This document shows, piece after piece, positions 2,833 to 5,709 of a stretch of 25,228 nucleotides of DNA. The notes beneath the pieces were generated by a model. The model was not told the DNA's origin. It saw only the letters and a program-made list of their open reading frames with translations, and did no database searches. The stretch comes from a virus, in the IMG/VR virus record IMGVR_UViG_3300009034_000197, positions 1 to 25,228 of that record. The stretch is one strand, 5' to 3'. A program made the translations under genes and the position numbers. The first letter of the stretch is position 1. Each line of letters opens with the position of its first letter.

Positions 2833-5073
2833 ATGGAAGCGAAAGTCGAGACGACGGAGAACTACCACCGCATCCCCGTGAGCGAGGGGCACCAAGGCCA
2901 TCGCATCAGGACAATTTCGATAAGCGATGACCGGGGTATCAACGCGCTCTACTGTGGGGAATGCCGGGAAGTCGTGACCTATCTGTTCAATGTGGACAAA
3001 TGGAGCATGGCCGAGGCGAAGCGGTGGGTTTCGGAGCACAAGGCGATGATTACCGAGATCGGTGAGCAGTCGTACAAGGTGGAGGTGGAACCGATGGATG
3101 TCGTAGATGATCCCAACACAGGGAAGGAATTGACCATTGAGGAAAAGGCCGTGAAAGCTGTCGAGGAGGACGGCGAGTGGATTCTGGAGGGCCTGGGTGT
3201 GCCCTATGGAGGCCCCTTCGAGGGCAAGGATGAAACAGGCGAATTCTTCGATGAGAAGACGGATCTGGGTCTCGACCTCTATCCCAAGCGCCCCGTCGTT
3301 TTCCATCATGGCCTGACCGAGAAGGAGCCGGAAGTCATCGGGCAAGAGATCACCCACGAGAAGCGGGATGGAGGCACTTGGATCAGGGTGGTCTTGGATA
3401 AGACGAAAGAGTTGGCGAAAAGGGCGTGGGAATTGGCCAAGCAGGGCAAACTTTTCTTCTCTAGCGGGGCCATATCCCACCTAGTACGGAAAGGCAAGGA
3501 GGGCCGCATCTTGAAGTGGCCCGTGGCGGAGTGGTCGGTCACTCCGAAGCCTGCGAATCGTTATGCCGTCGCTCAAGCGGCGGCCAAAGCGCATTTCAAA
3601 GCCATAGGCATCGAGTTCGACGATGGAGCCTCCTCGGATAAGGCCGGTGAAGCCTTGGAGGAGGCGGGACGACGAGATGCCGATGGCGATGAGACAGTAC
3701 AAGACAAGAGAGGTGACAAAGTGAGCGATGAAGTGAAAGCGGCTGTGGAAGCAGCCCTGAAGGAACGTGAGGAGGCCGAACAGCGGGCCAAGGACGCGGC
3801 AGAGCTGGAGACTTTACGCACCGAGATCCCCGATCTCAAGAAGCAGATCGACGAATTGAAGGCGGAGGTGGAACGCAAGCCCATCTTCGGGGACGGCGAT
3901 GTGGAAGTCAAAGGCAACTTCTGGGACCAGCAGGACGCGGCCGATCGTGAGATGGTCTACATGATGCTCTTGGGAGCCGGGCAACCGGCCTCAGAGGAGT
4001 TGCGGCAGGCCGTGAAGGGCGGTCTTGAGGAAGCCGTCAAGGCTGATCCTTTCTGGCTCAGGGGCGATGAGGATAAACCGCAAACCCTTGATATGCAGAT
4101 CAAGGCTATCGCCCTGATGGACCGGACGGATACCGCCAACTGGCGGCCCCAAAACTACGAAAAGCGGGTGTGGGATCGGCTACGCTTGGAGAACAGGGCT
4201 GCGGCCCAGTTCACCAACATGGACCTGCCGAGCGACAACTACTACCTGCCGACATCGACCGCTGGGCCGACCGTGTATGTAGTCCCCGAGCAGACCGCCG
4301 GAACTCCCACCTTGGCGACTGGCATCACCACCAGCCAGATCACCGATGCCAAGGTGACGTTTGCAACGACCAAGCTCGGTTGCGCCGTCTGGTTCAGCGG
4401 CGAGTTGGACGAAGATGGGATTGTACCCCAGCTCCCCATTGTGCGTGACCAGATGGCCAAGGCACAGGATGAGGCGATAGAGAACGCCATCTTGAGTGGT
4501 GACAAGACCACCGGAACCGGCAACATCTCCGAGGCCACCGCCGCCACGACCAGCAAGAACATCGTCTGCGACGGCCTGCGGCACTTCGGCCTGGTGGACG
4601 CCACGACCTACAAGCGCGATTGCGGCGCGCTCGATCTGGCTGATGTCCATGCGTTGCGCCAACTGATGGCCAAGCACGGGATAAGGCCGTCGGATCTCGT
4701 TTGGTTCTGCGACTACAACACCATCTATAAGATGCTCGACTTCGACGAGTTCACCACCATAGACAAGATGGGGCCGAAGGCAACGATTGTCACGGGGCAG
4801 GTGGCCGACCTATCGGGTTCCCCGCTTATCGTCTCCGGCGAGATGAACAAGTTCGGGACCGACGGGAAATACCACGCCACGCCGACCACAGGCATCCTGA
4901 TCTGCGCGCACAAGCCTTCCTGGCTCGTGGGTTGGCGCAGGCGCATCAAGTTCGGCGTCAACTACTACGACCATCTTGATGCAACCCGGGTGACCTCGCT
5001 TCTGAGAATGGACCTTCAGAAGTTCGGAACGACCGATGGGCACGCGGTCGTGGGTTACAACATCACGCTTTAG
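2833..5073 (+). CDS. Prohead protease fused in frame to HK97-fold major capsid protein
   Basis: One 746-aa frame holds three modules. Residues about 1-260 resemble a phage prohead serine protease (S78-like): FHHG (H158/H159), SSGA (S210/S211) and the typical EWSVTPKPANRYA motif; H and S are the likely catalytic residues. An N-terminal subdomain carries a CGEC pair. Residues about 297-355 form a charged coiled coil (KEREEAEQRAKDAAE), like the HK97 delta/scaffold region. The remaining about 390 residues look like an HK97-fold capsid protein (QDEAIENAILSGD, later WRRRIKFGVNYYDHLDATRV). I chose ATG 2833 over the upstream in-frame ATG 2800 because AGGGGG sits 6 bases before it and 2800 lies inside the portal gene. 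In HK97 protease and capsid are separate genes; here they are continuous, with an internal start at 3721. Confidence 0.82.
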   Translation: MEAKVETTENYHRIPVSEGHQGHRIRTISISDDRGINALYCGECREVVTYLFNVDKWSMAEAKRWVSEHKAMITEIGEQSYKVEVEPMDVVDDPNTGKELTIEEKAVKAVEEDGEWILEGLGVPYGGPFEGKDETGEFFDEKTDLGLDLYPKRPVVFHHGLTEKEPEVIGQEITHEKRDGGTWIRVVLDKTKELAKRAWELAKQGKLFFSSGAISHLVRKGKEGRILKWPVAEWSVTPKPANRYAVAQAAAKAHFKAIGIEFDDGASSDKAGEALEEAGRRDADGDETVQDKRGDKVSDEVKAAVEAALKEREEAEQRAKDAAELETLRTEIPDLKKQIDELKAEVERKPIFGDGDVEVKGNFWDQQDAADREMVYMMLLGAGQPASEELRQAVKGGLEEAVKADPFWLRGDEDKPQTLDMQIKAIALMDRTDTANWRPQNYEKRVWDRLRLENRAAAQFTNMDLPSDNYYLPTSTAGPTVYVVPEQTAGTPTLATGITTSQITDAKVTFATTKLGCAVWFSGELDEDGIVPQLPIVRDQMAKAQDEAIENAILSGDKTTGTGNISEATAATTSKNIVCDGLRHFGLVDATTYKRDCGALDLADVHALRQLMAKHGIRPSDLVWFCDYNTIYKMLDFDEFTTIDKMGPKATIVTGQVADLSGSPLIVSGEMNKFGTDGKYHATPTTGILICAHKPSWLVGWRRRIKFGVNYYDHLDATRVTSLLRMDLQKFGTTDGHAVVGYNITL
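3707..3723 (+). promoter_or_regulatory. Internal ribosome binding site and GTG start for the capsid
   Basis: The bases AGAGAGGTGACAAAGTG place an extended Shine-Dalgarno match (GAGGTGA) four bases before an in-frame GTG. It lies in a stretch of charged, low-conservation linker (DETVQDKRGDK) where chance selection for such a site is unlikely. Confidence 0.6.
3721..5073 (+). CDS. Nested capsid precursor from an internal GTG start (delta domain + capsid)
   Basis: Within the protease-capsid frame, GTG at 3721 is in frame and preceded by GAGGTGA (3710-3716), a seven-base match to the 16S rRNA tail with a four-base gap. This is nearly the same arrangement as the downstream gene at 5155 (GGAGGTGA, CCA, GTG). 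The product would be 450 aa, starting VSDEVKAAVEAALKEREE: a coiled-coil scaffold segment followed by the HK97-fold capsid, i.e. the architecture of the HK97 capsid precursor. The GTG falls exactly at the protease/scaffold boundary. Inferred: most capsid protein is made from this start, with the long protease-capsid product made in small amounts, comparable in principle to the nested scaffold in lambda C/Nu3. Initiation at this site is not proven by sequence. Confidence 0.6.
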   Translation: MSDEVKAAVEAALKEREEAEQRAKDAAELETLRTEIPDLKKQIDELKAEVERKPIFGDGDVEVKGNFWDQQDAADREMVYMMLLGAGQPASEELRQAVKGGLEEAVKADPFWLRGDEDKPQTLDMQIKAIALMDRTDTANWRPQNYEKRVWDRLRLENRAAAQFTNMDLPSDNYYLPTSTAGPTVYVVPEQTAGTPTLATGITTSQITDAKVTFATTKLGCAVWFSGELDEDGIVPQLPIVRDQMAKAQDEAIENAILSGDKTTGTGNISEATAATTSKNIVCDGLRHFGLVDATTYKRDCGALDLADVHALRQLMAKHGIRPSDLVWFCDYNTIYKMLDFDEFTTIDKMGPKATIVTGQVADLSGSPLIVSGEMNKFGTDGKYHATPTTGILICAHKPSWLVGWRRRIKFGVNYYDHLDATRVTSLLRMDLQKFGTTDGHAVVGYNITL

Positions 5074-5126: not shown

Positions 5127-5154
5127 GGCCTCAAAAAAAGACAGGAGGTGACCA

Positions 5155-5709
5155 GTGAGTCAGAGGGAAAGAATATCAATCAAGGCCAAGAAAAAGTGTA
5201 CGATTGACATGGCTGCCGACGCCATTAGTGGCGAGGAGCACGCGTTCGCCGTCGCTTACGCTGGCATCCTCAGCTCCGGCGATTCGATGGTCGGTGGCAA
5301 TTTCGCCGTCACCCCAACCGGGTCTGCTGGGTCCTGGGTTTCTGGCATTTATGCCAAGGTGACTCAGGGGGCTACGAAAGCCGTTAACGGCTATATCAGC
5401 GGCGCGGAGTTCGAGGTCATCAATAGTGCCGACAATGTATCGGACAACTTCGTGCTAGTGCTGAACTCCAACAATAGTGGTGGTCAGCGTGGTTCGCACG
5501 AGTCCTACATCGCCCTACGCAGCTATGGTTCATTGGCAGCCAATAGTTTCTTATGGGTGTCAACCGACCATACCATCGGCACGAAGAGCGATACCGTTCT
5601 GATGAGCACGTTCGCCGACGGCGCGCACATCAGCCACGCCCTGCGGTTCATAGCAGGGTCAACGCCGTATTGGCTTTTGGCTTCCAGCACGGCACCGTCA
5701 GGCACGTAA
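5155..5709 (+). CDS. Beta-rich structural protein, candidate head decoration or fibre protein
   Basis: The protein has 184 aa, starting at GTG 5155 behind AGGAGGTGA, among the strongest ribosome sites in the window and expected for an abundant protein. It is rich in Gly, Ser, Ala and Thr, lacks membrane segments, and alternates short hydrophobic strands (FAVAYAGILSSGDSMVGG, NFVLVLNSNNSGG). The C-terminus ALRFIAGSTPYWLLASSTAP resembles ends of beta-rich virion proteins. The position directly after the major capsid gene is where decoration or head-stabilising proteins are usually encoded. I do not recognise a named family. The gene is isolated between two hairpins (5097-5126 and 5720-5743), suggesting a separately controlled or stabilised mRNA segment. 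Alternatives are a head fibre or a surface-exposed accessory protein. Confidence 0.6.
   Translation: MSQRERISIKAKKKCTIDMAADAISGEEHAFAVAYAGILSSGDSMVGGNFAVTPTGSAGSWVSGIYAKVTQGATKAVNGYISGAEFEVINSADNVSDNFVLVLNSNNSGGQRGSHESYIALRSYGSLAANSFLWVSTDHTIGTKSDTVLMSTFADGAHISHALRFIAGSTPYWLLASSTAPSGT

Follow-up and report, generated by a model that had tools for sequence, protein, structure and literature searches.

A probable nested capsid start within a phage protease-scaffold-capsid fusion gene and its recurrence in other fusion lineages

In phage lambda, the protease gene C contains an in-frame nested start, that of Nu3, which yields a shorter C-terminal product. The herpesvirus UL26/UL26.5 pair likewise consists of a protease-scaffold long form and a nested short form, which have a common C-terminus and co-assemble. 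Fusions of protease and capsid are also known, having been described in Arthrobacter clusters AM and AU (PMC5513430), Microbacterium EE and EL and small-genome Arthrobacter, Gordonia and Rhodococcus phages (PMC7302621), Rhodococcus CF (PMC13313380), and RcGTA-like prophages (PMC11409702). The original prediction for the locus studied here, which called the two parts normally separate genes, was thus right for HK97 or T5 but too general, given the fusions already described in many actinobacteriophages (PMC5513430, PMC7302621, PMC13313380). Since the fusion is already known, the novelty here is the nested start. We found no description of an internal capsid start in protease-capsid fusions in the open literature, and a major capsid protein that is itself the nested product, family-wide and recurring, seems to be unreported in the open literature searched.

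The window is the whole stretch of DNA that was analysed, 25,228 nucleotides of IMG/VR virus record IMGVR_UViG_3300009034_000197. Its fusion gene has the following features, where L002 is the one close relative found.

2833..5073, + strand: protease-scaffold-capsid fusion gene encoding 746 aa, its ATG start preceded by AGGGGG
3142..3597, + strand: S78-type prohead protease domain, about residues 104-255, conserved in L002 and with homologues in L003 and L005
3598..3708, + strand: linker, of different sequence and length in the window and L002
3709..3716, + strand: Shine-Dalgarno sequence AGAGGTGA of the nested start; GGAGGT at equal 6-nt spacing in L002
3721..3723, + strand: nested in-frame start GTG, residue 297; ATG in L002
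3721..5073, + strand: predicted nested product, scaffold and capsid, 450 aa, residues 297-746
3727..3876, + strand: putative coiled coil, delta or scaffold-like, at the N-terminus of the nested product, from a model helix and a weak match to phrog_4866
4231..4872, + strand: HK97-fold capsid core, T5-like, from profile matches

The 746-codon frame (2833-5073, + strand) contained no internal stop and, together with the domain matches, bore out the predicted union of protease and HK97-fold capsid in one frame. The fusion gene is preceded by a portal-MuF fusion gene (575-2830) and followed by a gene beginning at 5155, and its first start, ATG 2833, has AGGGGG six bases to its 5' side. An in-frame ATG at 2800 (757 aa) was rejected as the start, being without Shine-Dalgarno pairing. 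An initial scan of genome contigs with query A1 gave no relative; the one close relative found, L002, is 63-70% identical and has the same fusion, so that all fusion parts stand in one stop-free frame in more than one independent sequence. Sequencing error was rejected as the source of the fusion because L002, a second contig, comes from another metagenome. Portal and MuF are likewise encoded by one 751-aa gene (575-2830) and served as a comparison case, in which the strongest internal sites fell inside the portal part and none was present at the beginning of MuF. The gene after the capsid has a GTG start with a very strong Shine-Dalgarno sequence, AGGAGGTGACCAGTG (window 5137-5157), close in form to that of the nested start.

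A direct Pfam search with the window protease gave no match, as the domain is too divergent. Its assignment to the S78 type follows from the Goe26 protease, to which it is 34% identical (E 6e-13) and which itself clearly matches Peptidase_S78 at 6.4e-9. The domain contains candidate catalytic residues (H158/H159 and S210/S211) and has the C-terminal motif TPKPAN (237-242), and the HH and SSGA are kept in L002. By homology and its conserved His and Ser, the region of residues 104-255 is identified as a divergent S78-type prohead protease. Among proteases, the best match to its structural model (pLDDT 54) was T4 gp21, which was weak (VIA Z 5.6); many herpesvirus proteases also matched this low-confidence model, interspersed with MCE proteins that had comparable Z values. 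The capsid part matched the profile TIGR01554 at 1.9e-11 (43.7 bits, cut-off 27.5) and the T5 capsid chains of known structures at 5.8e-12 by profile, while its Pfam Phage_capsid score (22.3) was just under the cut-off of 24.2; from the curated-family profile, it is classified as an HK97-fold major capsid protein of T5-like type. The evidence for a scaffold comprised a helix at residues 3-52 of the nested product, taken from a capsid model that was otherwise unusable (pLDDT 33), and the weak scaffold match to phrog_4866.

The coordinates agreed with the original prediction of GAGGTGA (3710-3716), four bases (CAAA, 3717-3720) and an in-frame GTG (3721-3723) opening a 450-aa product, all at the protease/scaffold border. 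Pairing of the nested Shine-Dalgarno sequence with 16S rRNA was -13.0, as against -9.3 at the gene's own first start, and most of the window's 18 predicted gene starts paired less well than the nested site. An equally good site occurred in 10.7% of the other 60-codon windows of the gene, strong in-frame sites having a density of 0.69 per kb, and residue 88, an internal ATG, had a Shine-Dalgarno sequence (-13.8) as strong as that of the nested site or slightly stronger; this residue-88 site was not conserved in L002. Synonymous shuffling scored by duplex energy gave P values of 0.02 and 0.19 for the window and L002, respectively, and mostly non-significant values elsewhere, the test being insensitive; codon-choice and phase tests told more. 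In the window alone the nested site is mildly unusual, at about 1 in 10, and because this single-sequence signal is weak, the case for the nested start rests on conservation. These frequencies (10.7% and 0.69 per kb) are what would speak for a chance Shine-Dalgarno-like site with a Met or Val in a purine-rich, charged linker, but we consider such an origin quite improbable, as L002 conserves both place and spacing and a border site recurs in most other lineages examined.

In L002, GGAGGT, six nucleotides and ATG occupy the same border, so the nested start is kept. The peptide beneath the Shine-Dalgarno sequence reads RGDK in the window and GGIK in L002, and the linker has diverged in sequence and length between them while the Shine-Dalgarno sequence and start have stayed. 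Selection for the nested start is likely in the window gene. Across the wider material, an in-frame internal start with its own Shine-Dalgarno sequence, conserved in relatives, was found in L002, in the Circum-like family and in several other lineages.

We put at about 0.78 the probability that the window gene makes two in-frame products, the full-length protease-scaffold-capsid protein and the scaffold-capsid protein alone. Ribosomes starting at 2833 would make the former, and those starting at GTG 3721, with its own Shine-Dalgarno sequence, would make the latter, presumably in excess of the long form; the ratio of the two is not fixed by the relative strength of their starts. As the capsid domain is the C-terminal part of both products, the long form could enter the prohead, where as a minority subunit it would carry the protease inside. 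Once assembly is complete, and as expected from HK97 and T5, the protease would cut itself and the scaffold away. If correct, this arrangement would explain how phages with a shared frame avoid having one protease per capsid subunit and yet are assured of some protease inside the head.

Using Circum gp12 as a query, we retrieved 160 further loci from viral contigs and bacterial genomes, and the protease and capsid were fused in one frame at all 158 loci where both parts were found. The contig of one Circum-like fusion (L141) is assigned to a Thermoplasmata archaeon, probably through a binning error. In an alignment made non-redundant at 85% identity (154 sequences), the column at the capsid border (Circum M242) was ATG, GTG or TTG in 147 sequences, and 141 of the 154 had both a start and a Shine-Dalgarno sequence there, compared with 67 at the next best internal column and 110 at the annotated gene start. 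All three codon phases were used by the Shine-Dalgarno sequence (67/48/41), and 64 different tripeptides, such as KGG, EED, QEG, KEE and YGG, lay under 156 sites. In members with GC3 >0.8, where GAA and GGA are otherwise rare codons, GAA was found at the site in 24 of 25 against 3.4 expected (z 12), and GGA in 14 against 1.8 expected (z 9); these z values overstate independence because the sequences are kin. Synonymous sites should be saturated at the 40-50% protein identity seen in this family. The recurrence of QEG or KEG before the Met in part of the family would fit a motif retained for the sake of the protein, where the protease would cleave beside the capsid N-terminus; this explanation is very hard to credit, given that the encoded peptide is variable (64 tripeptides across 156 sites), the motif shifts phase, and GC-rich members use the rare GAA and GGA codons at the site. 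On account of the three phases, the variety of tripeptides and the rare codons, the Circum-like border motif is best read as a ribosome-binding site whose nucleotides, rather than the encoded peptide, are under selection, and selection for a nested start is strongly supported in this family. A further in-frame start with a Shine-Dalgarno sequence occurs in some Circum-like fusions at the protease/scaffold border (Circum M165; L011:8528-8530), and Salk, Gordon, Qui and Lactococcus 1706 have its equivalent; a third product would result from it.

Among the other fusion lineages, the best internal site lay just past the protease in Yasuo gp5 (M166), Courtney3 gp7 (M160) and a marine sequence (L214, residue 189 of a 645-codon frame). 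The Yasuo site is retained in phiExGM16 with a changed peptide. In RRH1 Orf7, the border site (M274) was the best once a codon three residues from the gene's start was set aside. The border site ranked second in two marine sequences, L219 and L216. A border site was sought in EricDab and not found, and that of marine L206 was weak. The eight lineages combined, with EricDab and L206 included, gave a P of about 1.6e-4, based on one sequence per lineage, each value floored at 0.02, and on protease-motif anchors chosen by eye, one per sequence. The nested border start, as identified from these sequences, recurs in most but not all of the other fusion lineages examined, and the conservation of Shine-Dalgarno sequence and start named as a check in the original prediction was accordingly present in L002 and in most of these lineages. 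Ilzat was rejected as an example of a fusion, as its scaffold and capsid genes are separate. A different fusion is seen in Salinibacter phages (L007:2300-4840), where an 846-aa protein has the protease domain close to its C-terminal end.

In two split relatives (L203 and L204), a single TAG parts the protease from the capsid in the same frame, and the capsid Shine-Dalgarno sequence (AAGGAG) lies directly before the TAG with ATG six bases after it (L203:940-970 and L204:880-910). Loss of one stop from an operon of this type would produce the nested-fusion arrangement. The two split relatives also show what an ancestral site would look like if the full-length fusion, whose frame is continuous, were the sole product, with the protease of each subunit cleaving itself off in the prohead and the Shine-Dalgarno sequence a relic of a separate capsid gene. 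We regard this alternative as unlikely, since a relic would decay, whereas in the Circum-like family the Shine-Dalgarno sequence and start form the most conserved start site of the gene, the Shine-Dalgarno sequence is kept in three codon phases against codon bias, and the L002 site survives amid a changed linker. Readthrough of the TAG in L203 and L204 would yield a protease-capsid fusion. A TAG also interrupts the scaffold part of a marine protease-capsid fusion that is intact elsewhere (L207:3551-3553), where the near-identical L210 has a lysine codon; it may be a natural variant, an error or a suppressed stop. In the protease and capsid genes of L201 (L201:3000-4830), TGA occurs in frame several times and aligns at least twice with glycine in relatives (LIN*DTTTA in L201, LSGDKTTGT in relatives); TGA is also present inside the capsid frame of L202. 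The alignment suggests that TGA is read as glycine in L201, and perhaps in L202, as in Gracilibacteria/SR1 hosts.

Taken across lineages, a nested capsid start is probably the usual design of tailed-phage protease-capsid fusions, one that would have arisen several times and would deliver the protease into the prohead covalently linked to a minority capsid subunit. Hundreds of deposited genes named 'major capsid and protease fusion' are then probably annotated with just one of two products. Many such phages grow in laboratory strains, making the question of the nested start directly testable.

Compared with known systems, the window gene resembles the published actinobacteriophage fusions in that protease, scaffold and HK97-fold capsid share one frame, while its protease and T5-like capsid represent a different lineage. 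The Circum family, Yasuo, Courtney3 and RRH1 also have a start and Shine-Dalgarno sequence at the capsid or scaffold border; the main nested start is at the scaffold/capsid border in the Circum family and at the protease/scaffold border in the window. HK97 gp4/gp5 and T5 have the same kinds of protein, including a capsid with the scaffold as its N-terminal domain, but encode them in two genes and package the protease non-covalently. The proposed pair of products is similar to herpesvirus UL26/UL26.5 in its long and short forms with a common C-terminus, whereas the herpesvirus nesting relies on a separate transcript, with the capsid protein apart from both forms. As in lambda C/Nu3, a nested in-frame start within the protease gene would give a shorter product; in lambda this product is the scaffold alone, with the capsid protein E separate, whereas in the window it would be the capsid protein itself.
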